From: Akkermansiaceae bacterium
GTDB taxonomy: Bacteria > Verrucomicrobiota > Verrucomicrobiia > Verrucomicrobiales > Akkermansiaceae
Length of the DNA: 33,990 bases
Assembly: GCA_903826205.1 (NCBI GenBank)
Contig: CAIKDP010000361.1
Location: 1 to 33,990 of the forward strand
Reading direction: 5' to 3'
Shown: one piece after another, positions 21,296-33,648 of the stretch
Layout of the letters: every line of letters begins with the position of its first letter
Numbering within the stretch: position 1 is the stretch's first letter
Program-made: the position numbers and the translations under genes
Notes under the pieces: model-generated
The model's database searches: none
Told to the model about the DNA's origin: nothing
Seen by the model: the letters and a program-made list of their open reading frames with translations, nothing else

Positions 21296-22891
21296 TCACA
21301 AAGAGTTGAGAAACTCCACGAGGTCGCTGCGCTTCGCCTCATCCCGGATCACCCACGGGTGGGCCGGGTGTTTCGTGAGCGGCTTGGTATAAAGACTGCT
21401 GCCGGGTAGCAGCCGCTGCGGATTCAGGAGATCGTCCAGCGTGGCCACGGAGTGGTCGTGGAGGTACGGCGCCGTGGCGTAGATCGAGAGGAGCGGCGAG
21501 ACCCGGATCCCGCCGCTTTCCTTCATCCGCTGGGTCGGCTGGCCGTTGGAGCCGATCACGTCTAACGGAATTGAAGCCTGGTTGGTGTACATGCCCAACC
21601 ATGGCGTATGGCAGGTATAGCACTTGGCCTCATCGAACACCTTGCGCCCCCGGCCCGCCTTGACAAGGTCCACTTTCGTGTTGCGCAGTGGCGTCAGGCT
21701 GTTGAGGTAACAGCAGAGGGCGATGGAAACTTTAAGCGGCGCCATGTAGGGAGACCCTTGATTGATCCAGGCGTTTGAGTGCCGTTGGTACTCCGGCATG
21801 GGCACCCCGGCGGACGACCAATAGCGGAATCCATGGGTGCCCCGGGCGAGCATGATCGCCGTGGGGTTTTCGATCCCGTCGGGAAAGTAGCGGAAGGTCA
21901 AATCAGCAGTGCCGGCGGGCCAGCGGTCCGCCTGCTGGCGCATATCCTCCGGAATATTTTCCGCCATCGCGATCAACTTGCCAAACTTCAGGGTGCTCGA
22001 CGGCAGGCCCGCCGTGATCTTGTTGTCCACGGGATCGCGACCGGTGTGGCAGTAGGCGCACGAGTAACCCACCCGGATTTCGCCGTCGACTCCCTTCTGG
22101 ATCCGCACCCCCACGACCGGCGTGGGCTCGGAGAACCGGTCCGCCTCGCCCTCATCGACCAGGCAGTCCGCATCGTTGCGGGGAAGAAACCCATATTTGA
22201 CGTACTTGTGCGGGTCGGCGTTGATTTTGAGCTTGGGCACCTTGACCAGCGACGAAGCCTCCTCGTTGAGTTGGGTCCAGCCGAAAAAGAGCGCCTTGCC
22301 AAGCTTGATGTGTTCCTCCTGGCCGGTGACCTCGAAGCGGACCCCGTTGGATGAGCGGGGGTTCTTCACGAGCGGCCGGAAGTACCCCTTGGGGACCATC
22401 TCCATGCGGATCATCTCCCAGAGGGTGACCGTGACGTCGCCGGTGGTGGTGTGCTCCGGGACGGTGAACCGGATCTTCGTATCGGTCCATTCGAGCACCT
22501 CGACCTTGGGGACCGCCTCGGCCATGTTCAACGCGATACCGTTGAGCCCTTGCTGGGCCCCAAAGCCGGTGCCGGTGACCGTGACCACTGAGCCGGGATG
22601 GCCCGACCGGGGCGAAACGTCAGTGATGACCGGATCGGCCGCGAACGAAGGCACCATGATGCCTTCGTAGACCTTCAGGATGGCGTCCCCCATGCGGGTC
22701 ACATCGTCCGGTATTTCCACATTCACCACCACCGCCTTGGGCACCGCCGGGTTGAGGATGGCGTTCACCTTTCGGTACCCCCAATACCCTCCCGCTCCGA
22801 CCCCCACCAGTATCACCAAAAGGAGCCCGCGCCAGTGGCGCCTAACGGCTTTCACGCTTGCCAGGAAATAGCTTGAGGGGTTGCTGCTCAT
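21296..22891 (-). CDS. Membrane-anchored di-haem c-type cytochrome with TIG domain
   Basis: 531 residues from the ATG at 22891; the in-frame TTG at 22918 is an alternative. One helix at about 22-38 anchors the protein (RGLLLVILVGVGAGG). An IPT/TIG-like beta domain lies at 87-156 (PVITDVSPRSGHPGSVVTVTG). Two haem-binding motifs follow: CAYCH (278-282) and CYTCH (424-428). The C-terminal part (LLSIYATAPYLHDHSV then LDDLL) resembles the di-haem peroxidase/MauG-like group. It is therefore a periplasmic, membrane-tethered redox protein. Possible roles are peroxide reduction or oxidative tailoring; neither is shown. No cytochrome oxidase genes are nearby. Confidence 0.85.
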   Translation of the reverse strand: MSSNPSSYFLASVKAVRRHWRGLLLVILVGVGAGGYWGYRKVNAILNPAVPKAVVVNVEIPDDVTRMGDAILKVYEGIMVPSFAADPVITDVSPRSGHPGSVVTVTGTGFGAQQGLNGIALNMAEAVPKVEVLEWTDTKIRFTVPEHTTTGDVTVTLWEMIRMEMVPKGYFRPLVKNPRSSNGVRFEVTGQEEHIKLGKALFFGWTQLNEEASSLVKVPKLKINADPHKYVKYGFLPRNDADCLVDEGEADRFSEPTPVVGVRIQKGVDGEIRVGYSCAYCHTGRDPVDNKITAGLPSSTLKFGKLIAMAENIPEDMRQQADRWPAGTADLTFRYFPDGIENPTAIMLARGTHGFRYWSSAGVPMPEYQRHSNAWINQGSPYMAPLKVSIALCCYLNSLTPLRNTKVDLVKAGRGRKVFDEAKCYTCHTPWLGMYTNQASIPLDVIGSNGQPTQRMKESGGIRVSPLLSIYATAPYLHDHSVATLDDLLNPQRLLPGSSLYTKPLTKHPAHPWVIRDEAKRSDLVEFLNSL

Positions 22892-23255
22892 GGGAAAATT
22901 GGAGGGATTGAATTTCAAACAGGAAATTCTAAACGCAAGGATGACGATGAAGAAAAACCGTCGTGATCTTGGTTTGGAGTTTATGATTGATGGATTCGCA
23001 TTTCAGCCGGGACCCGGAAATGCGGGAGAAGGGGTGGCGGAGAAAGCGTTAAATCGCAAGCACCAAATTCCAGTTTGAAATTCCGGACGCAGGCAGGCTT
23101 GAATTATAGGGCGGTGGGCTCATGGGTTACAGGGGGGAGTGGCCGGGATCTTCTATCAACATGGATGGATCTCAGAGGTCAGTCCCGGCCCGGTTCTCGC
23201 GGCGCTCTGTGGGTCGGCACCTAGCGCCTCAACGGGTCGCTGAACCCAAAGCGCT
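22892..23255. other. Intergenic region, no gene supported
   Basis: This 364-base stretch between the cytochrome start and the GH95 end holds short open frames but none with convincing family similarity. It contains an inverted repeat (annotated separately) and is less GC-rich near 22905-22990 and 23050-23110. It should include the promoter of the cytochrome gene and the terminator of the GH95 operon; no clean hairpin plus T-run was seen. Confidence 0.6.
22910..23084. repeat. Inverted repeat pair flanking about 135 bp
   Basis: Left arm 22910-22930 reads GAATTTCAAACAGGAAATTC. The right arm at 23065-23084 is, as reverse complement, GGAATTTCAAACTGGAATTT. They share GAATTTCAAAC exactly and continue with one mismatch and one indel. 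The left arm is also internally symmetric (GAATTTC...GAAATTC). The architecture resembles a small MITE or a pair of binding sites. No target-site duplication was evident at the outer edges. Confidence 0.5.
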
Positions 23256-25544
23256 TCATTTCACCGACGTCAATACTTCCTTGAGTTCGCCATTGACGCG
23301 CAGCTTGACCTTGGCGGGCTTGGCGGAGCGGATGTGATAGGTGGTGACTTTGCCGTCCTGCCATTCGCAATCGAGGGTGTGGCCGCCACGGGCGCGCAGG
23401 CCACTGAAGGAACCCTTGGCGGCCCAGGCCTTGGGCAGGGCGGGCAGCAGGGCGATTTCGCCGGCGTGGGATTGCACGAGCATTTCCGCCATGGCGCCGC
23501 TGATGCCGAAATTGCCGTCCATCTGGAACGGAGGATGGTTGGTGAAAAGGTTGGGCAGCGTGTTGTAGGTGAGCAACCCGCGCACCATGATATGGGCGCG
23601 CTCGGCCTCGCCCAACCGTGCCCACAAGGCGCATCGCCACGGCCAGGTCCAGGACCGGCGGCTGTCGCCAATGGTGGTGTCCACGTCAAACGGCTTGCCG
23701 GTCTTGTCCTGGTGGTCGTTGCTGCGCACCTTGAGCGAAACGATGGCGGCCTTGGCCAGTTCCGGCGTGACGGTCGGGCTGATCTGGCGACCCGGATAAA
23801 CGGCAAACAGGTGCGAGGTGTGTCGGTGGGTGTCGTTCGGGTTGTCGCGATCCGCCTGCCACTCCTGCAATTGTCCCCACCGGCCAATTTTGTTAGGTGC
23901 GAGCTTGGCCTGCATTTCGGCCACCGTTTTCTGGTAATCGGCATCAACACCGAGGGCCTTGGCGGCATCAAGGTAGTTTTGGAACAGGTCCCAGATGAGT
24001 TGTTGGTCGTGCATGACGCCATCCTCGCGCGGGCCCTGCTCCGGGGACCAGCCGTTAGGAACGACCAGCGTGCCATTGGGCAGGGCCTTGAGGCGGTCTT
24101 CCCACATCTGGCAGATCTCCTTGAGCATCGGATAGGCGGATTTTTTCAGATAGGCGGGATCGCGGGTGAACGCCCAGTGCTCATAGACGTGCTGGGCATA
24201 CCAGGCGCTGGCAGGAATGTTCCAGTCCCAGCCGTTGCCACCGAAGATGCTCTGGCTGGTGCGGGCGGTCCAACCGCGGGTTTGCGGGCCGAACGCCTTG
24301 CGGGTGGCGATGCGGCACGGCTCGGCCTGCGCCTCGATGAAATCCACCAGGGGCGTCTGGCATTCGGATAGATTGGTGGATTCGGCGCCCCAGTAGTTCA
24401 TCTGGATGTTGATGTTGTTATGATAGTCGCTGGCCCATGCCGGCGAGTTGCTGTCATTCCACAGGCCTTGCAGGTTGGCGGGCAGGCCGCCGGGTCGCGA
24501 GCAACTGGCTAACAAATAGCGGCCGTATTGGAACAGGGTTTCCTCCAGATCGGGATCCGCCATGGATTCGGCGACACGCCTGAGTTTGTCGCCGGCACTG
24601 GCGTCCACGCCATTGCCCTGCACGGCCTTGAATTCGCCGCCGATGCCGGAATAGCGCTTCAGGCGTTGGTCGGTCGGCAAGGCGAGGACGGCGGGATCAG
24701 TGGAGCCGACGTCGATGCGGGCGCGGCGCAACAGGGATGATAGATCCTTGACGTGAGCGGCCTTGAGGGTGGCGTAAGGCTTGGCTTGGGCGGCGGCCAG
24801 TTCCTTGTCGATCACCGGCAGCGGGTCCGCACCACGCCAACCCGCCTTGTAATCCGGCTTGTAGTTGGTGCGGACGTCCATTAGCAACAACACGCTGTCG
24901 CAGTTTTCAAAAACGAACGCGTCGCCGTCCACGCGGGTCTTGCCTCCGGTGGTGAGGGCGCGCACCACCGCGGCGTGCTTTAATTTGTTAGGCATTTCGC
25001 CGTTGAAAGACAGGCCCTTGGCGGAAATTGTGGTGGCGGCCCCTTGCGCCGATTTCAAGGCGATTTTTCCAGACAAGGCGGCCGGCTTGTCTGCGGTGAA
25101 GCGGAATGCCATCACCTGATCCGGATGACTGGCGAACGCCTCGCGGGTGAACTTGATGCCGTTGTGGGTGAAGGTGGTGGTGTGTATGCCATCACTGATA
25201 GAAAGGGAGCGCTGGTAATCGGCGGGCACGGGTTCCGGCAGGTCCCAAGTGAGGGTCAAGTCGCCGAAGGTTCGATAGCACCCGAACCCGTGGTCGCCGC
25301 ATTCGTAGTTGCCGTCCCAGTTGTTATCGCCCGACCACAGGCTTTGTTCATTGAACTGGATGCGTTCTTCGCGCACGCCGCCGAAAAGCATGGCACCCAT
25401 CCGTGAGTTGCCGATGGGCAGGGCCCCTCCGGACCAATCGACAGCGGGTTGGCGGTAATTCAGCGTTGGATTGGCATCCTGCGGTGCGGCCTTAACCGGA
25501 GCCAGCAGGGCGAAGGCCAGCAGGAGTTTGGATAAATGGTTCAT
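23256..25544 (-). CDS. Glycoside hydrolase family 95 (alpha-L-fucosidase type)
   Basis: 762 residues from the ATG at 25544, which gives a signal peptide (HLSKLLLAFALLAPVKA). N-terminal beta domain: RQPAVDWSGGALPIGNSRMGAMLFGG and FNEQSLWSGDN, both hallmarks of GH95. The (alpha/alpha)6 barrel carries NLQGLWNDS and NINIQMNYW (the substrate-binding Asn pair), SPEQGPREDGVMHDQQLIWDLF with the general-acid Glu, and PFQMDGNFG with the catalytic-site Asp. GH95 enzymes are inverting 1,2-alpha-L-fucosidases or alpha-L-galactosidases. Secretion suggests use of fucosylated or sulfated algal or mucin-like glycans. It follows the deiminase-like gene by 19 bases. Confidence 0.92.
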   Translation of the reverse strand: MNHLSKLLLAFALLAPVKAAPQDANPTLNYRQPAVDWSGGALPIGNSRMGAMLFGGVREERIQFNEQSLWSGDNNWDGNYECGDHGFGCYRTFGDLTLTWDLPEPVPADYQRSLSISDGIHTTTFTHNGIKFTREAFASHPDQVMAFRFTADKPAALSGKIALKSAQGAATTISAKGLSFNGEMPNKLKHAAVVRALTTGGKTRVDGDAFVFENCDSVLLLMDVRTNYKPDYKAGWRGADPLPVIDKELAAAQAKPYATLKAAHVKDLSSLLRRARIDVGSTDPAVLALPTDQRLKRYSGIGGEFKAVQGNGVDASAGDKLRRVAESMADPDLEETLFQYGRYLLASCSRPGGLPANLQGLWNDSNSPAWASDYHNNINIQMNYWGAESTNLSECQTPLVDFIEAQAEPCRIATRKAFGPQTRGWTARTSQSIFGGNGWDWNIPASAWYAQHVYEHWAFTRDPAYLKKSAYPMLKEICQMWEDRLKALPNGTLVVPNGWSPEQGPREDGVMHDQQLIWDLFQNYLDAAKALGVDADYQKTVAEMQAKLAPNKIGRWGQLQEWQADRDNPNDTHRHTSHLFAVYPGRQISPTVTPELAKAAIVSLKVRSNDHQDKTGKPFDVDTTIGDSRRSWTWPWRCALWARLGEAERAHIMVRGLLTYNTLPNLFTNHPPFQMDGNFGISGAMAEMLVQSHAGEIALLPALPKAWAAKGSFSGLRARGGHTLDCEWQDGKVTTYHIRSAKPAKVKLRVNGELKEVLTSVK

Positions 25545-25563
25545 GGCAGAGGACTTGTTGATA

Positions 25564-26736
25564 TCACCAATCCCGCCAAGGTCCAGCCTGATTGCGACGT
25601 TTGAGCACGTTGACCAGACAATGCAGGCAACCGAAGTGACGATAAATGCTGGTGCAATCAACCGGTCTCACCTTGTAGCCTAGGCTTTCCCAAACCTCAC
25701 GCGCGGCGGCATTGAGCGGTTCGGCACCGCGATAGTATGGGAGATAGACGATGCGCTCTCCAGCCAGTTGGTCAATCAACACGTTGGCGTAAGTAAGATA
25801 GGTTCTGCCATCGCGCGCGGGGACGACCGGGAGACGCGTCACCTGATAACCTGCGGCTGCACATTGGTCGGCAACCGCATCGAACAGATGCTGGGTTTCA
25901 AGAGTGAAGTCAGGGCCCCCGGGAAGACCCATGAAACCTTCCGCCATCGCACCGTCATCACCGGCGGATTTGACATATCTTCTGCCAAGGCTCGGATCAC
26001 CCACCAGCATCCTGCGCCCGCCCACTGACACCATGTACATGCCAGCGTGATGGTCCGGTGATGTGTCTAACAATATAACGTGGCGTTTGAGTCCGCAGGC
26101 AAGAGTCTGCAGCAACTCATCCCGACTGTTCACGGTATGCTGGATGTTGCGCGGCAGGACCCGCGACACCACAAAGACATTCTCCGAGTCTGCCAGAAAG
26201 TCGCCACCGTCAAAATACAGGTTGCTGCGCAGCGCCCGCAGCGACGCCGCCATGGCTGCCGCAAGATCACTGCCAACCCGCTCGTCGCCTGCGCGCGCCG
26301 GCCAGATTTCCTCGGCGGCCTCGCCACGCGGACTCCAGAGTGTGGTCAACCCGCCATCGGATGCCGGAGCCAAAGCCACCCAGCGGTCTCGCGACCAAGT
26401 GGTAACCGGATGGCTCACCACCACCGGTGAGAGCCGGCACTTGACGTCACCCAGTGCCGTGGCCAGTTCGTCGAACGCGGTCTGGCTGGGACAGACAACG
26501 TGCACGGTGACGTCACTTGCCAGCGCGCCCAGGAAGTCGCGGTAAACCGGAACCACGCTGGCCTTGGCGGTTGGCTCATAGTGAATGACCAGTTCGCTTA
26601 GCTGACCGTCGCACTCCGAAAGGATCGGGCCGGCGGGCGGCGGCGGGATTTTACCGCCACCCCCGGTTAGTGTTAGAATGGCGGCCCCGGCCAGCAGTCC
26701 GAGCACCACTCCCATAACGGTTTGCCAACGCGGCAT
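25564..26736 (-). CDS. Membrane-anchored deiminase-fold (GME superfamily) protein
   Basis: 390 residues. One N-terminal helix (about 8-24, VMGVVLGLLAGAAILTL) with a Pro linker (KIPPPPAGP) anchors a periplasmic domain. The domain resembles agmatine/peptidylarginine deiminases: WSRDRW (114-119, equivalent to WxRDxGP), FDGGDF (175-180), a His in SPDHHAGMY (226-234), and a C-terminal Cys373 in GCLHCLV at the catalytic-Cys position. The substitutions (RDRW for RDxGP; HxG where many relatives have HxD) suggest a divergent substrate or altered chemistry. The substrate could be a guanidino compound or protein arginine. The assignment is from motif order; the function is not established. Confidence 0.7.
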   Translation of the reverse strand: MPRWQTVMGVVLGLLAGAAILTLTGGGGKIPPPPAGPILSECDGQLSELVIHYEPTAKASVVPVYRDFLGALASDVTVHVVCPSQTAFDELATALGDVKCRLSPVVVSHPVTTWSRDRWVALAPASDGGLTTLWSPRGEAAEEIWPARAGDERVGSDLAAAMAASLRALRSNLYFDGGDFLADSENVFVVSRVLPRNIQHTVNSRDELLQTLACGLKRHVILLDTSPDHHAGMYMVSVGGRRMLVGDPSLGRRYVKSAGDDGAMAEGFMGLPGGPDFTLETQHLFDAVADQCAAAGYQVTRLPVVPARDGRTYLTYANVLIDQLAGERIVYLPYYRGAEPLNAAAREVWESLGYKVRPVDCTSIYRHFGCLHCLVNVLKRRNQAGPWRDW

Positions 26737-27546: not shown

Positions 27547-29061
27547 ATGAACAAGAAAATCGTAATCGTCGGTGCCGGGCCGGGCGGGCTCACCGCCGGC
27601 ATGATCCTTGCGCACCGCGGGCTGGATGTGACCCTCGTTGAGAAACGCAGCCGGGTCGGCGGACGCAACGCGGAATTGCGCTTGGGCGACTTCTCGTTTG
27701 ACACGGGGCCGACGTTTCTGCACCAGAAATTCACCTTGGACGAGGTGTTTGCCGAGGCCGGCAAAAAGGCGGAGGACTACCTAGATTTCCAGTTGCTGGA
27801 TCCGATGACGCGCCTCAGTTGGAGTGATGTGGCACTGGAAACGACCTCCGATGCCGTGCGCATGGAGTCCAACATTGAGGCCGCTTTCCCCAGCCACGGC
27901 GAGGGCTACCGGCGCTTCATGAGCGATCACGCGCGCAAACTCAAAACCATCTATCCGTGCCTGCTCAAGCCCTATCACGAACTCAAGGCACTGGTCAGTC
28001 CCACGCTGCTCAAGGCACTCCCCTACGTTGCCACCACCCAAACCGTGATGGATGTGCTGGACCAATATTTCAGCGACGACCGGCTCAAACTCGCCTTCAC
28101 CTTTCAGGCGAAGTATCTGGGCATGTCGCCGTGGAACTGCCCGGCCCTCTTCAGTATAATCTCCTATATTGAATACAAATACGGCATCTATCATGTCCGC
28201 GGCGGGCTGTGCCAAATTTCCGCGGCGATGAGCCGGGTGTTTCAGGAGAACGGCGGAACCCTCCGCCTGGATTGTCCGGTGCGCGAGGTCCAGTTCTCCG
28301 GCCGGCGGGCCGCCGCCGTCTTGTTGGAAAGCGGCGAGCGTCTCGCCTGCGACGACGTCATTATCAACGCCGACTATGCCCACGCCGCCACCCACCTGCT
28401 CAACGGACGCTCACAGGCGGTGGAGTCGATGGAACGCAAAAAATATTCCTGCTCCACTTTCATGCTGTATCTGGGGCTGGACACGATCTATCCGGACGAG
28501 CCGCACCACCACGTCATATTTGCCGACGACTATGGCCGCAACGTCGCGGACATTCAAAGCCAGCAACGGGTTTCCGAGGACATGTCGATCTATGTCCGCA
28601 ACTCGTCCATCAATGATCCCGGGGTGGCGCCACCCGGACAAAGCGGCCTCTATATTTTGGTGCCCACCATCAATACCCGCCATGGGTTCGACTGGCGTGG
28701 CCAGCAAACGGCCTACCGCGACAAAGTGCTCGAACGCATCGAGAACAAGACCGGCATGAAGGATTTGCGCAGCCATATCATTGCCGAACGCATCATCACG
28801 CCTGCCGACTGGCGCGACGACCAGGACATCTTCATGGGTGCCACGTTCAATCTCGCCCACACGCTTGACCAGATGCTCTATTTGCGCCCCCGCAACCGGA
28901 TGGCCGGCTTCGACAATCTCTATCTGGTAGGCGGTGGCACCCATCCGGGGTCCGGACTGCCCACCATCTACGAGAGCGGCCGTATTTCCAGCAACTTGCT
29001 CTGCGACAGCCACCGGGTGCCCTATCAGCGTGTTGATTACGCCCCGCAGTTCATCGCCTGA
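27547..29061 (+). CDS. crtN: C30 carotenoid desaturase (CrtN type)
   Basis: 504 residues from the ATG at 27547; the frame extends upstream to 27469 without a better start. N-terminal FAD-binding motif IVIVGAGPGGLTAG (GxGxxG at 9-14) and VEKRSRVGGRN. The body agrees with staphylococcal CrtN: YSCSTFMLYLGLD, HHHVIFADDYGRNV, and the C-terminal VGGGTHPGSGLP FAD motif. CrtN removes hydrogens from 4,4'-diapophytoene to give diaponeurosporene or diapolycopene. It is convergent with aldH and separated from crtP by it. The related C40 phytoene desaturase CrtI is less likely given the neighbours. Confidence 0.85.
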   Translation: MNKKIVIVGAGPGGLTAGMILAHRGLDVTLVEKRSRVGGRNAELRLGDFSFDTGPTFLHQKFTLDEVFAEAGKKAEDYLDFQLLDPMTRLSWSDVALETTSDAVRMESNIEAAFPSHGEGYRRFMSDHARKLKTIYPCLLKPYHELKALVSPTLLKALPYVATTQTVMDVLDQYFSDDRLKLAFTFQAKYLGMSPWNCPALFSIISYIEYKYGIYHVRGGLCQISAAMSRVFQENGGTLRLDCPVREVQFSGRRAAAVLLESGERLACDDVIINADYAHAATHLLNGRSQAVESMERKKYSCSTFMLYLGLDTIYPDEPHHHVIFADDYGRNVADIQSQQRVSEDMSIYVRNSSINDPGVAPPGQSGLYILVPTINTRHGFDWRGQQTAYRDKVLERIENKTGMKDLRSHIIAERIITPADWRDDQDIFMGATFNLAHTLDQMLYLRPRNRMAGFDNLYLVGGGTHPGSGLPTIYESGRISSNLLCDSHRVPYQRVDYAPQFIA

Positions 29062-29076
29062 GCCGGCTTGGCAGAG

Positions 29077-30459
29077 TCAGCCAGCGCCGAGGAAGCGCAA
29101 CAGGCGCTTCAACGCCGGCAATCCAACGCGGGGCGGCGGATAGCGGAACTTCGGGTCGAACGCCAGCGAGCACCCCAATACCGATCGCCGGTGCGTGAAA
29201 CAATCGAAACTCGCCCGGCCATGATAGGCGCCCATGCCGCTCTCGCCGAGCCCGCCAAAGGGCAGATCCGTGCCAAGAATATGCGTGATGGTGTCGTTGA
29301 TGCAGACCCCTCCCGAGCGGGTGCCGGCAAGTACCCGTGCCTGCGTGTCGCGGTCGCGGGTGAACAGATAGAGTGCCAGCGGCGACGCCAGCCCGCGCAG
29401 CTTGGCAAGCGTCTCATCCAAATCCGAAAACTCCAATACCGGCAGGATCGGTCCGAAAATTTCCTCCTGCATCACCGGCGCCGTCCACGGCACATCGGTT
29501 AGAATAGTTGGCTCGATGTAACATTCGGCGGCATCATGGCGTCCGCCCGCGGCGATTTGCCCGTCACGGAGATACCCTGTCAGGCGGTCAAAATGCCTGC
29601 GGTTGATGATGCGCCCATAGTCCTGACTCTGCTGCGGATCGTCACCATAAAACTCACGCACCGCCTGCTTGGCCGCCGCCACAAAAGCCCCTGCCACCCG
29701 CTGATCGACGAGGATGTGGTCGGGGGCGACACAGGTTTGGCCGGCATTCATGAACTTGCCCCAGACGATCCGGCGCGCGACGATCTCCAGCGGCGCATCG
29801 GCGCACACAAGGCTCGGGCATTTGCCGCCGAGTTCGAGGGTTACAGGTGTTAGATGCCGGGCGGCAGCGGTCATGACGGCACGTCCGGTGGGCGAGCTGC
29901 CCGTGAAGAAAATCGTGTCAAATCTATGTTGGAGCAAGGCTTCGGCTGTTGCCTGTTCACCTTGGACGACGGCGATGAAAGCTTCTGGAAAGGCGGTGCC
30001 GAGAATGTGTCCGAGCCGTGCCGCCGTGTGGGGCGCAAACTCGGAAGGTTTGAGGATGGCGCAGTTGCCGGCGGCAATGGCGCCGACCAAGGGTGAGAGC
30101 AAGAGTTGCAGCGGGTAGTTCCAAGGGCCGATGATGAGAGCCACGCCCATGGGTTCGGGACGGATGCTGCCGCGGGCGGGCCACACCAACAGCGGCGCAC
30201 GACGGCGTGCCGGCTTCATCCACTCGGACAGATGGCCGAGGGCATGACGGATTTCACCAAGCACGAAACCCAATTCCGAGGCGTAGGCCTCGTGCGGGCT
30301 TTTGTGCAAATCCGCGTGGAGCGCATCGAGCAAGTCCGTCTCGTGCGCCGCCAGCGTGTCGAGCAGGGTGTTGAGTTGCGCGCGGCGAAACTCCTGCGGC
30401 AGGGTCGCCCCGGACTGGAAAAATGCCCGCTGGCGCGCGATAAGAGGCGTGAAATCCAT
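29077..30459 (-). CDS. aldH: Carotenoid aldehyde dehydrogenase (AldH, ALDH class 3-like)
   Basis: 460 residues from the ATG at 30459; a TTG at 30501 is in frame. ALDH landmarks: the oxyanion Asn in GPWNYPLQLL (Asn114), the Glu in TLELGGK (Glu209), and the nucleophile Cys243 in NAGQTCVAPDH. The short length and lack of a long N-terminus fit class 3 aldehyde dehydrogenases that accept long hydrophobic aldehydes. In C30 pathways AldH turns 4,4'-diaponeurosporenal or diapolycopenal into the acid. Context, not sequence alone, supports that substrate. The gene runs opposite to crtN and crtP and ends 15 bases from the crtN stop. Confidence 0.85.
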   Translation of the reverse strand: MDFTPLIARQRAFFQSGATLPQEFRRAQLNTLLDTLAAHETDLLDALHADLHKSPHEAYASELGFVLGEIRHALGHLSEWMKPARRRAPLLVWPARGSIRPEPMGVALIIGPWNYPLQLLLSPLVGAIAAGNCAILKPSEFAPHTAARLGHILGTAFPEAFIAVVQGEQATAEALLQHRFDTIFFTGSSPTGRAVMTAAARHLTPVTLELGGKCPSLVCADAPLEIVARRIVWGKFMNAGQTCVAPDHILVDQRVAGAFVAAAKQAVREFYGDDPQQSQDYGRIINRRHFDRLTGYLRDGQIAAGGRHDAAECYIEPTILTDVPWTAPVMQEEIFGPILPVLEFSDLDETLAKLRGLASPLALYLFTRDRDTQARVLAGTRSGGVCINDTITHILGTDLPFGGLGESGMGAYHGRASFDCFTHRRSVLGCSLAFDPKFRYPPPRVGLPALKRLLRFLGAG

Positions 30460-30608
30460 ATTCTGCTTGCGGTATGCAGCTGTTGGAGTATCGCTTATCA
30501 AGTCATGACTAGCAAGCCGGTACTTCGGGTGTCTGCCGTCGCGCTGGGATCACAGGCGGAACGACCCGCCAAGGGTGGACTCTCCCGTATCAAGTAACAA
30601 TCGTCCCC
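30460..30608. promoter_or_regulatory. Divergent aldH/crtP control region
   Basis: 149 bases between the two start codons. It contains the perfect 10-bp palindrome AGTCATGACT at 30501-30510 and two copies of TATCAAGT, near 30496 and 30592, the second just before the crtP start. These could be sites for a shared regulator, as the divergent genes serve one pathway. No clear -35/-10 pair could be assigned by eye. Confidence 0.3.
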
Positions 30609-32087
30609 ATGAGATCCAAACAAGTCATCGTCATTGGAGCCGGCCTCGGTGGCTTGTCAGCAGCCATCTCGCTGGCGCAGCGCGGGTATTCGGTCGCCAT
30701 TCACGAGAAGAACGCGAAGATTGGCGGTAAGCTCAATGTGCTCAAAGAGGGCGGCTACACATTCGATCTCGGCCCGTCGATCCTCACGCTGCCGCATATC
30801 CTTGGGCGCTTGTTCGAGCGCTCGGGCAAACACATGAGCGATTACATTCCGATCCGCCCGCTGCGTCCCCACTGGCGGAATTTTTTTGAGGATGGCAAGG
30901 TCGTGGACCTCTATCCGGAAGCGGACCTGATGGCGGCGGAGGCGCGCAAGGTGGGCGAGGATCCCGCCCGGGTGGTGCGGTTTTTGAAGTACTCCGCCGA
31001 CCTCTTTGATCTGGTCAACGCCGGCTACTTCGAGCAGGGGCTCGACACCGCCAAGGACTTCAGGCGCTTTTACGGGTTGGCCAATTTTCTCCGGTTCGAC
31101 CTGTTCCGCAGCATGCACGGCGGGGTGAAGCGGTTCCTCAAGACGCCGCACATGCAGGATATCTTCGATTACTTCATCAAGTATGTCGGCTCGTCGGCCT
31201 ATCACGCGCCCGCGTTCATGAACTGTATGGCCACCATCCAATTCCGTTATGACCTTTGGTATGTGGATGGCGGCTTGTACAACATCGCCCTCGGCCTGCA
31301 GCGGTTGTTGGATGAAATCGGCGTGGTGGTCCACCTCCACAGCGAAGTCACCGAGGTCCGCAAGCAGGGGGCACGGGTGACCGGGCTCGTTGCCAACGGT
31401 GAATTCCATCCCGCCGACATCATCGTGTCCAACATGGAGGTCATTCCAGCCTACGAAAAATTGTTGTTGGAAGACGATGCGTTCATGCGTGGCCTGGATC
31501 GATTCGAGCCGTCCTGCTCAGGGTTGGTGCTCGAACTCGGGCTGGACTGCCAGTATCCGCAACTCGCCCACCACAACTTCATTTTCTCCCGGCATCAGCG
31601 TGAGCATTTTCACACCGTTTTCCGCAAACGCCAATTGCCGCCGGACCCGACGATCTATCTAGTTGCCGCGTCCAAGACCGATCCCACCGTGGCGCCGCCC
31701 GGCTGCGATTGTCTGAAAATCCTGCCGCACATTCCGTACATCGATGACGCGCATCCGCTTTCCCGCGATGACTACATGGCGCTCAAGGAGCGCGTGTTAG
31801 ACAAACTGGAGCGGATGGGTCTGAAGGATCTGCGCCGCCACGTCGTGTTTGAACATTGTTGGACACCGCAGGATATTCGCGAACAATATTATTCCAACAA
31901 GGGCTCGATCTACGGCGTCGTCAGCGACCGCTTCAAGAACCTTGCCTTCAAAGCCCCTAAACAGAGCACAAAGTATCCGAACCTGTTTTTCGTCGGCGGC
32001 TCGGTGAACCCCGGCGGCGGCATGCCGATGGTGGTTCTCTGCGGCCAGAACGTCGCAAACAATGTTGTCGCATGGGACCAATGCTGA
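30609..32087 (+). CDS. crtP: C30 carotenoid terminal oxidase (CrtP type)
   Basis: 492 residues. FAD motif VIVIGAGLGGLSAA at 6-19 and HEKNAKIGGK. Similarity to S. aureus CrtP extends along the whole chain: FDLGPSILTLPHI, FIKYVGSSAYHAP, IIVSNMEVIPAYEK, CQYPQLAHHNF, LKILPHIPYIDDA and the ending FVGGSVNPGGGMPMVVL. CrtP oxidises the terminal methyl of diaponeurosporene or diapolycopene to the aldehyde. It is a paralogue of the crtN product but clearly in the oxidase branch. Its stop overlaps the crtQ start by 16 bases, so crtP-crtQ-crtO is one operon. Confidence 0.92.
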   Translation: MRSKQVIVIGAGLGGLSAAISLAQRGYSVAIHEKNAKIGGKLNVLKEGGYTFDLGPSILTLPHILGRLFERSGKHMSDYIPIRPLRPHWRNFFEDGKVVDLYPEADLMAAEARKVGEDPARVVRFLKYSADLFDLVNAGYFEQGLDTAKDFRRFYGLANFLRFDLFRSMHGGVKRFLKTPHMQDIFDYFIKYVGSSAYHAPAFMNCMATIQFRYDLWYVDGGLYNIALGLQRLLDEIGVVVHLHSEVTEVRKQGARVTGLVANGEFHPADIIVSNMEVIPAYEKLLLEDDAFMRGLDRFEPSCSGLVLELGLDCQYPQLAHHNFIFSRHQREHFHTVFRKRQLPPDPTIYLVAASKTDPTVAPPGCDCLKILPHIPYIDDAHPLSRDDYMALKERVLDKLERMGLKDLRRHVVFEHCWTPQDIREQYYSNKGSIYGVVSDRFKNLAFKAPKQSTKYPNLFFVGGSVNPGGGMPMVVLCGQNVANNVVAWDQC

Positions 32088-33121
32088 TCCTGCTTGTCGT
32101 CACTGTGGCACTCTGGGCAGCGGGGTTTCTCCTGTTGCCACGGCGGCCGTGTTGGGACGCTGCCGAGGTGCCGCCATCCACCCCATCCCTCAGCATCATC
32201 ATCCCCGCCCGCAACGAGGAGCATAACCTCCCCACGCTGCTGAAGTCATTGGCCGCGCAATCGGTTAGACCAGCGGAAATCCTGGTGGTGGACGACGGTT
32301 CGACCGACCGCACCGGGGAGATCGCCAGGCAGCTGGGCGCCACGGTGGTCATCTCGCAACCGCTCCCAGACGACTGGCACGGCAAGACCTGGGCCTGTCA
32401 TCAGGGCGCACAGGCCGCCGCGGGCGAGTGGCTGTGCTTCGTGGACGCGGACACGTGCTTCGAGGCCGGCGGTTTGGCGCGCATTCTCTCCTGCTACCGG
32501 GGCGGCGCGTTCTCGGTGGGCCCGTGGCATGCGGTGAAAAGGCCCTATGAGAACCTTTCGTTGTTTTTCAATTTGAACATGGTTGCCGGAACCGGAAATC
32601 ACGGGCTGTTCGGGCAGATGTTGCTGGTGGATCGAAACAGTTATCTGTGGGTTGGCGGGCATGTCGTGGTCCGCAGGTGCATCCTCGAGAATTTCCAGCT
32701 AGCCCAACATTTTCTGGCGGCTGGCGTGCCGGTGCGCAGTGTGATCGGCAAGGGTGTATTTGCGTTCCGCATGTATCCGGGGGGAGTCGGCGAGCTCATC
32801 GAAGGCTGGATCAAGGGCTTTGCTGCCGGTGCCGGGCAGACGCCGCGCGCAACGCTGTGCCTCATCGTGGCATGGATGACGGGCCTGATGATAGCAGCAT
32901 CAGGCTGTGTGCAGAGCGGCGCGCAGCTGGCGTGGGTTTTGATCTATCTATCATGTGCCGCGCAGGTGGCGTGGTTCGGCCGCAGGGTCGGGGCGTTTCG
33001 CTGGTATGCGGCGCTGTTCTATCCGTTGCCGCTGCTGTTCTTTTTCGTCGTGTTTGGGCTGTCGGCCCTGCGCTCGGGCAACAAGGTCACGTGGAAAGGA
33101 CGCGAAATCCATGCCGATTGA
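32072..33121 (+). CDS. crtQ: C30 carotenoid acid glycosyltransferase (CrtQ type, GT2)
   Basis: 349 residues. An N-terminal helix (MLILLVVTVALWAAGFLLL) precedes a GT-A domain: SIIIPARNEEHNLP, VVDDGSTDRT, DDWHGKTWAC, FVDADTCF (DxD), and GQMLLVDR. Three C-terminal helices occupy about 265-330, ending SGNKVTWKGREI, which is like the end of CrtQ. CrtQ attaches a sugar to the carboxyl of diaponeurosporenoic or diapolycopenoic acid at the inner membrane. The sugar donor cannot be read from sequence; glucose is usual in Staphylococcus and xylose is found in Rubritalea C30 carotenoids. It overlaps crtO by 11 bases. Confidence 0.85.
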   Translation: MGPMLILLVVTVALWAAGFLLLPRRPCWDAAEVPPSTPSLSIIIPARNEEHNLPTLLKSLAAQSVRPAEILVVDDGSTDRTGEIARQLGATVVISQPLPDDWHGKTWACHQGAQAAAGEWLCFVDADTCFEAGGLARILSCYRGGAFSVGPWHAVKRPYENLSLFFNLNMVAGTGNHGLFGQMLLVDRNSYLWVGGHVVVRRCILENFQLAQHFLAAGVPVRSVIGKGVFAFRMYPGGVGELIEGWIKGFAAGAGQTPRATLCLIVAWMTGLMIAASGCVQSGAQLAWVLIYLSCAAQVAWFGRRVGAFRWYAALFYPLPLLFFFVVFGLSALRSGNKVTWKGREIHAD

Positions 33122-33578
33122 AGTGCCGGTTGTCTGGGTTGTCGTGACGAATGTGGTTGGCTGGCCGGTCATTCAACTCGGTCTCGCCTGGCTCTTCACG
33201 CGGCTGCCCGTGGCGTGGTTCGATCCGCCCGGCGCAGCGGCCTGGGAACAAGGCGGGCGCTTCTACGAACGCGTCTGCGGCATCAGGCACTGGAAAGACC
33301 GGCTGCCGGATGGCGCGCGCTGGATTGGCGGTGGATTTACCAAGGGGACGCTGACCGGAAGCGCGCCAAGTTACCTGCGCCGTTTCATTCAGGAAACATG
33401 GCGCGGCGAGCTCTGCCATTGGTTTGCCATCGGCTGCACGCCGGTGTTTTTCCTGTGGAATCCGTGGTGGGCCGATGCGCTGATCGTGGTCTACGCTGTG
33501 ACTGCCAATCTGCCGTGTATCCTCGCCCAGCGCTACAACCGCCTCCGCCTGCGCCATCTGCTGGCCCGCAAATCCTGA
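33111..33578 (+). CDS. crtO: Glycosyl carotenoid acyltransferase (CrtO type)
   Basis: 155 residues from the ATG inside the end of crtQ. Several hydrophobic segments (about 6-28, 104-124, 125-140) mark an integral membrane protein. It matches CrtO of staphyloxanthin synthesis in size and motifs: FYERVCGIRHWKDRLPDG, KGTLTG, RRFIQETWRGELCHW, and the C-terminal RYNRLRL (RYNRPRL in S. aureus). CrtO transfers a fatty acyl group to the sugar of the glycosyl carotenoid ester. A longer open frame begins at 32955 but lies within crtQ. It is the last gene of the operon and is followed by a palindrome. Confidence 0.88.
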   Translation: MPIEVPVVWVVVTNVVGWPVIQLGLAWLFTRLPVAWFDPPGAAAWEQGGRFYERVCGIRHWKDRLPDGARWIGGGFTKGTLTGSAPSYLRRFIQETWRGELCHWFAIGCTPVFFLWNPWWADALIVVYAVTANLPCILAQRYNRLRLRHLLARKS

Positions 33579-33604: not shown

Positions 33605-33648
33605 TCGCGACAATGGCGTGGTCCGATCGGACCACGCCATTGTCGCGA
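33605..33648. terminator. 44-bp perfect palindrome, probable operon terminator
   Basis: Twenty-two bases beginning TCGCGACAATGGCG are followed at once by their exact reverse complement, centred on GGTCCGA|TCGGACC, with no loop. It starts 26 bases after the crtO stop. No T-run follows (next bases TTGGGCGGGCC), so an intrinsic terminator is not certain. It could act as a bidirectional block, an mRNA-stabilising hairpin or a mobile palindromic unit. Confidence 0.6.

Follow-up and report, generated by a model that had tools for sequence, protein, structure and literature searches.

A verrucomicrobial five-gene cluster probably belonging to a squalene-fed pathway for acyl-glycosyl C30 carotenoic acids

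We analysed a 33,990-bp stretch of DNA from an Akkermansiaceae bacterium (GenBank assembly GCA_903826205.1, contig CAIKDP010000361.1), which is the whole contig and is hereafter referred to as the window, and found in it homologues of crtN, aldH, crtP, crtQ and crtO. The five genes very likely encode the pathway-specific steps of a C30 carotenoid route fed by squalene, the product of which would be an acyl-glycosyl ester of 4,4′-diapolycopenoic or 4,4′-diapolycopenedioic acid. The genes and their predicted products are as follows.

27547–29061, plus strand: crtN, C30 (diapophytoene/squalene-type) desaturase, 504 amino acids, type B lineage (see below)
29077–30465, minus strand: aldH, class 3-type aldehyde dehydrogenase, 462 amino acids
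30609–32087, plus strand: crtP, diapocarotenoid terminal-methyl oxidase (CrtP/CrtNb), 492 amino acids
32072–33121, plus strand: crtQ, family 2 glycosyltransferase (GT2), 349 amino acids; alternative ATG at 32081
33111–33578, plus strand: crtO, glycosyl-diaponeurosporenoate-type acyltransferase, 155 amino acids

All five frames are intact, with no internal stop codon. crtP and crtQ overlap by 16 nucleotides (7 with the alternative crtQ start) and crtQ and crtO by 11; crtN and aldH converge across a 15-nucleotide gap, and aldH and crtP diverge with 143 bp between them. Comparison with orthologues from two genomes of the same genus gave ratios of non-synonymous to synonymous substitution (Ka/Ks) of 0.09–0.27 in all seven comparisons (two each for aldH and crtP, one each for crtN, crtQ and crtO), which indicates that the five genes are under purifying selection. 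Because the Ka/Ks values are low and the same gene set recurs at many loci, the cluster is more than a set of chance frames. The initial annotation, which reported these five homologues within 6 kb with crtP-crtQ-crtO overlapping, is thus borne out by intact frames and by the family matches given below. It had also proposed a verrucomicrobial, diderm host, with which our results agree. The nearest matches of CrtP, among the best 80 of 484, come from metagenome-assembled genomes (MAGs) of Akkermansiaceae (90% and 88% identity), followed by other Verrucomicrobia, with methanotrophs at 56–59%, and an LptD match in the window fits a diderm. A verrucomicrobial host is thereby supported and, going by the nearest MAGs, a place within the Akkermansiaceae is likely. 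The source genome measures 5.57 Mb in 469 contigs and is 97.7% complete. The contig ends 412 bp past the cluster, so an additional downstream gene is possible. Scans of the window for promoters and terminators stayed at the level of shuffled sequence (1 against 1.7 expected and 6 against 6.8 expected, respectively), and a scan of viral contigs with CrtP gave no match.

We built trees for the CrtN/CrtP desaturase family and for the synthases, and assigned AldH, CrtQ and CrtO by family match, identity and position. The staphyloxanthin reference was the S. xylosus plasmid NZ_CP007209, in which we assigned the crt names from position and product lines. CrtN and CrtP are the only proteins of the genome that exceed the NCBIfam cut-off (238 bits) of the CrtI-family model TIGR02734, with 450 and 334 bits, respectively, and both contain motifs of the flavin adenine dinucleotide (FAD) type (GAGPGG at residue 9 in CrtN). 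CrtP is 46% identical to S. xylosus CrtP and 58% to Methylomonas CrtP; two CrtD models scored 263 and 279 bits on it, under their cut-offs of 580 and 500. AldH matches PF00171 (Aldedh; 306 bits), carries ELGGK and GQTC motifs and has class 3 aldehyde dehydrogenases among its closest solved chains; it is predicted to convert a terminal aldehyde to the acid. CrtQ matches PF00535 (Glycos_transf_2; 82 bits), carries DAD and VDDGS motifs and is 38% and 34% identical to two pieces of the S. xylosus glycosyltransferase; we infer its identity as CrtQ from these values and from its position between crtP and crtO. CrtO, which has no NCBIfam match, is the sole protein of the genome that matches PF18927, the staphyloxanthin acyltransferase family (108 bits, E 4e-31, Pfam cut-off 27.3), and is 36% identical to S. 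xylosus CrtO. The FAD-type, ELGGK, GQTC, DAD and VDDGS motifs were read in their customary senses. The CrtQ-CrtO tail proposed at the outset found support in both family matches and in the identities to the S. xylosus proteins.

Two desaturase trees were constructed, a quick one of 93 rows and a careful one of 46 of those rows; rows outside the careful tree include Sulfitobacter CrtD, a Niallia CrtP-like protein and Indioceanicola. The CrtI set was restricted to non-identical rows whose match covered at least 85% of the query. In the careful tree, CrtP was placed within a 19-row clade (support 100/100) with CrtP of S. xylosus, Cytobacillus, Methylomonas and alphaproteobacteria; the Niallia protein lay outside the CrtP clade of the quick tree. 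CrtN was placed within an 18-row C30 CrtN clade (100/99) with Methylomonas CrtN. CrtN proteins form two lineages, type B, which comprises those of the window, methanotrophs and Ignavibacteria, and type A, which comprises those of many verrucomicrobial loci and alphaproteobacterial plasmids. The CrtI clade was separate (eight rows, 100/100) and consists of seven rows labelled beforehand as C40 CrtI, two of them from genomes G005 (same genus) and G058, where they lie beside a further synthase, and one unlabelled row from G040. Forcing the 11-row type B CrtN lineage to join the eight CrtI-clade rows was rejected (p-AU 2.1e-5, approximately unbiased test), in a comparison where the group was chosen after the tree was seen and the other CrtN were kept apart. 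Forcing the window CrtN alone to join seven CrtI was rejected as well (p-AU 2.8e-10), an easy rejection since it splits this protein from its close relatives. These results support the assignment of CrtN and CrtP to the C30 type and not to C40 CrtI. The initial annotation had named desaturase trees as what could refute its C30 reading; a CrtI placement is rejected, and CrtD is weakly tested by its sole row (Sulfitobacter), which has a branch length above 4 in the quick tree and is absent from the careful one.

The genome encodes two SQS_PSY proteins, on contigs C439 and C73, and no third synthase; neither of the two falls in the CrtB group, and neither is a clear CrtM. The C439 protein is HpnD-like (257 of the 278.6 bits of the cut-off) and 26% identical to S. 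xylosus CrtM. In the synthase tree, the C73 protein and four methanotroph squalene synthases share a clade of 13 rows (100/100), a relationship by which a squalene synthase appears to be present. HpnE had no match over its cut-off in the genome. An HpnCDE route was considered and rejected: the best HpnE candidate, on contig C146, reached 85 of 283 bits and gave no match to Microvirga HpnE at 1e-10, and the frames around it, read from their translations, are glycosyltransferase-like and membrane-protein-like. Use of squalene for hopanoids was also rejected, the sole SQHop_cyclase_C match being marginal. Since there is no clear crtM, no HpnE and only a marginal cyclase, and since the C73 protein groups with methanotroph squalene synthases, the backbone is probably squalene.

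SQS_PSY matches occurred in all 59 genomes examined (the source genome and its relatives), with two in 50 genomes, one in six and more than two in three; synthases are present with or without CrtO, which was found in 15 of the 59. The higher count reflects one gene in two pieces in G054, whose protein is HpnD-like in the synthase tree, and includes two contig-end pieces, possibly of one gene, in G005. A third synthase was found in only two genomes, G005 and G058, where it lies beside CrtI and groups with CrtB (98/93). The loci in question (L229 in G005, of the same genus, and L230 in G058), at which CrtI adjoins the CrtB-group synthase, indicate that some members of the order have a distinct C40 pathway. 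A further genome, G048, has a synthase next to a fragment of the CrtI family (contig C103).

In the pathway that we propose, squalene would be supplied by the C73 synthase, possibly together with the HpnD-like C439 protein, and CrtN would dehydrogenate it to 4,4′-diapolycopene (or 4,4′-diaponeurosporene). CrtP would then oxidize one or both terminal methyl groups to the aldehyde, AldH would convert the aldehyde to the acid, CrtQ would esterify the acid with a sugar and CrtO would acylate that sugar with a fatty acid; the product may serve as an antioxidant pigment. We infer the squalene precursor, each enzyme activity, the number of desaturations, the mono- or di-acid state, the sugar, the acyl chain and the role from the genes, their families and the tree placements of CrtN, CrtP and the two synthases. 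By analogy with Methylomonas, Methylobacterium and Rubritalea, the aglycone is probably diapolycopenoic or diapolycopenedioic acid, and the predicted product class, an acylated glycosyl C30 carotenoic acid, is that of M. extorquens AM1 and Rubritalea.

Related loci were collected by scanning GTDB genomes with a CrtP alignment, and the best 80 of 484 confirmed matches were examined; we counted only gene matches of at least 80 bits. Contig ends truncate many of these loci, and the counts are therefore lower bounds. By record lineage, Verrucomicrobiota contributed 49 of the 80 loci and Pseudomonadota 15, and the gene set also appeared in single or few loci of further phyla, among them Acidobacteriota, Ignavibacteriota, Bacteroidota and Kiritimatiellota. 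aldH was found at 69 loci, crtN at 50, crtQ at 50, crtO at 48 and all five genes at 26, including 15 of the 49 Verrucomicrobiota loci. CrtO itself is patchy: it occurs in 12 of 37 genomes of the genus and in 3 of 22 from elsewhere in the order. The commonest orders, with arrowheads giving orientation, were aldH< crtP> crtQ> crtO> (17 loci), crtN> aldH> crtP> (13 loci) and crtN< aldH< crtP> crtQ> crtO> (12 loci). The inverted aldH between crtN and crtP had been singled out as a departure from the staphylococcal arrangement. The inversion itself is common: aldH lies opposite crtP in 47 of the 69 loci that have it and on the same strand in 22. It is not unusual for this phylum, because all 42 Verrucomicrobiota loci with aldH have it opposite crtP (the other 7 of the 49 gave no aldH match), while all 15 Pseudomonadota loci have it on the same strand. 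What is rare is the exact order crtN> aldH< crtP>, which recurs in one of the 80 loci (L059, on a contig of the same-genus genome G035). G035 has crtN-aldH-crtP on one contig and crtQ-crtO on another (L234, L040), the latter preceded by a short crtP 3′ stretch of 50 residues (66% identical), which suggests that its cluster was rearranged or duplicated.

The description of the cluster as staphyloxanthin-type holds for part of it. As in staphyloxanthin crtOPQMN, there are CrtP, CrtQ and CrtO homologues with a predicted glycosyl-acyl tail chemistry, and the CrtP clade and the CrtO family fit the name. The absence of crtM from the cluster and of a clear crtM from the genome does not, nor does CrtN, which is only 28% identical to its S. 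xylosus counterpart and groups with methanotroph and verrucomicrobial CrtN. In addition, aldH lies inside the window cluster but not in the S. xylosus stretch, and gene order and orientation differ. In a strict staphyloxanthin pathway, a synthase with CrtM activity would convert farnesyl diphosphate to 4,4′-diapophytoene, CrtN would form diaponeurosporene and the product would be a mono-acid. The identities of CrtP and CrtO to the S. xylosus proteins, the PF18927 match of CrtO and the weak position of S. xylosus CrtM beside the C73 clade fit such a pathway, which we nevertheless regard as unlikely: the C439 protein comes close to the HpnD cut-off and is distant from CrtM, the C73 protein is firmly joined to methanotroph squalene synthases, and CrtN sides with methanotroph, not staphylococcal, CrtN.

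The front of the cluster resembles that of methanotrophs. Methylomonas is described as having a squalene synthase, no crtM, no hpnCDE and a crtN-crtNb-crtNc cluster, with 4,4′-diapolycopene-4,4′-dioic acid as its main carotenoid (PMC10745290). The crtN-ald-crtP (crtN-crtNc-crtNb) loci of Methylomonas and Methylobacter have the same three genes in the same order as the window, crtN-ald-crtP being the methanotroph gene order; their CrtP is 58% and their CrtN 46–48% identical to those of the window, and their squalene synthases share the clade of the C73 protein. Unlike in the window, their aldH is on the same strand, and at the 13 three-gene loci neither crtO nor crtQ reached 80 bits, GT2 matches in a few being only weak (46–52 bits).

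For the tail, the closest experimental parallel is M. extorquens AM1, which is reported to make acyl-glucosyl diapolycopenedioic acid via crtN, crtP, a glycosyltransferase and an acyltransferase, with deletion and complementation assigning glycosylation and acylation of diapolycopene-dioic acid to META1p3663 and META1p3664, and to make squalene by HpnCDE (PMC10448405). AM1 (META1p3670, 3665, 3664 and 3663) shares crtN, crtP, a GT2 and an acyltransferase gene with the window, as do plasmids of Azospirillum, Microvirga and Limimaricola, all three of which also have the inverted aldH. The acyltransferases of AM1 and these plasmids are of the lysophospholipid-acyltransferase type, unlike the PF18927 CrtO of the window, and the plasmid CrtN is type A, not type B (AM1 is outside the tree). 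Microvirga and Limimaricola probably make squalene by HpnCDE, judging from two synthase domains with an FAD oxidoreductase alongside. Rubritalea squalenifaciens is likened to the window by product, not by genes: it is a verrucomicrobium described as producing squalene and diapolycopenedioic acid esters with 2-acyl-D-xylose (xylosyl A–C), that is, acylated sugar esters of a C30 di-acid (PMC3967232); its sugar is xylose, and that of the window product may differ. Other verrucomicrobial loci, for instance that of Haloferula sp. BvORR071 (L096), which shows all five genes, and the Akkermansiaceae MAG loci L058 and L059, match the gene content of the window to the extent that their contigs allow, with CrtP 75–90% identical; the position and lineage of crtN vary. 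Among the papers listed by searches touching on verrucomicrobial C30 carotenoids, none has a title or abstract opening that describes a verrucomicrobial crt cluster, a result that does not amount to absence from print.

A partial pathway, with some other lipid as the substrate of CrtQ or CrtO and a pigment that stays a free acid or is methylated, is distinctly improbable. It draws on M. extorquens PA1, which has glycosyltransferase and acyltransferase genes and yet, according to the discussion in PMC10448405, reportedly leaves its acid unmodified, and on the assignment of CrtQ largely by position; set against these are the overlaps of crtP, crtQ and crtO in the window and the finding that 44 of the 48 loci with all three genes have them side by side on the same strand. 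A C40 pathway with both desaturases acting on phytoene in the manner of CrtI/CrtD was rejected as extremely improbable: both proteins match the broad TIGR02734 model, and CrtP draws sub-threshold CrtD scores, with the CrtD side weakly tested, but CrtN and CrtI form separate clades whose union without type A CrtN is rejected, CrtP has a clade of its own, neither synthase is in the CrtB group and CrtO is a protein of the C30 acid route.

Several observations weigh against the squalene-fed, acyl-glycosyl reading. The C73 protein is under every NCBIfam cut-off (39.8 of 286.75 bits for the squalene synthase model), and S. xylosus CrtM stands weakly beside its clade (68/57) in a join flagged as long branches meeting, so a CrtM-like activity of the C73 protein is possible. 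S. xylosus CrtN is a very long branch that joins neither the CrtN nor the CrtI clade, and its placement is unsure. The cyclase fragment, marginal as it is, does exceed its cut-off (26.6 against 26.1 bits, over 130 of 319 positions). CrtQ is under all NCBIfam cut-offs (best HpnB, 83 of 379 bits). As for AldH, the methanotroph aldehyde dehydrogenases are only 30–34% identical to it, and deletion of two AldH homologues in AM1 is reported to have left production going (PMC10448405).

The two CrtN lineages alternate beside a conserved CrtP lineage. Types A and B are 46–50% identical in three pairs compared, and their CrtP partners fall in one clade; between loci L076 and L080, CrtP is 92% and CrtN 46% identical. 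For mapping CrtN type onto the CrtP tree, eight duplicate CrtP rows and any locus that lacked a full CrtP were removed, and a label was given only where the locus had a single CrtN, so that 53 of 84 rows were labelled (31 type B, 22 type A). The mapping required 7 changes; 300 label shuffles required 17.1 on average and never fewer than 12. These counts indicate that CrtN type is mostly inherited and yet has changed several times. One genome (G054) carries both types (L232, L233). The pattern is compatible with replacement as well as with an ancestral pair lost differentially.

Three further coding features precede the cluster in the window.

21296–22918: IPT/TIG-domain protein with a short RoxA-like cytochrome c stretch
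23256–25661, minus strand: GH95-type glycoside hydrolase (457 bits), which we take to be of the alpha-L-fucosidase family
25564–26736: matched weakly by the Porphyromonas-type peptidyl-arginine deiminase family (29 bits, with a cut-off of 25)

Just past crtO lies a perfect 40-bp palindrome (33607–33646) that is a member of a dispersed repeat, with 24 places in the genome at three mismatches or fewer and none for the reversed control. Paired arm changes among the copies mostly keep the palindrome, and three copies lie within 62 bases of a contig start. As a guess, it could belong to a repetitive extragenic palindrome (REP) or bidirectional-terminator family.

Taken by itself, the window gives an ordinary result, and the same gene set is found in related bacteria. 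The analysis shows the CrtN-AldH-CrtP-CrtQ-CrtO set to be recurrent in Verrucomicrobiota and puts forward candidate genes for the synthesis of acylated C30 glyco-carotenoic acids like those of Rubritalea. More tentatively, the cluster may encode a hybrid pathway, in which a methanotroph-type, squalene-fed front (squalene synthase, type B CrtN and CrtP) is coupled to a staphylococcal-type CrtQ-CrtO tail and yields an undescribed acyl-glycosyl diapolycopenoate or diapolycopenedioate, with CrtN lineages repeatedly exchanged beside a near-constant CrtP-CrtQ-CrtO, perhaps tuning desaturation number or colour. The alternation of types A and B beside CrtP-CrtQ-CrtO would offer a testable case of a first-enzyme swap.

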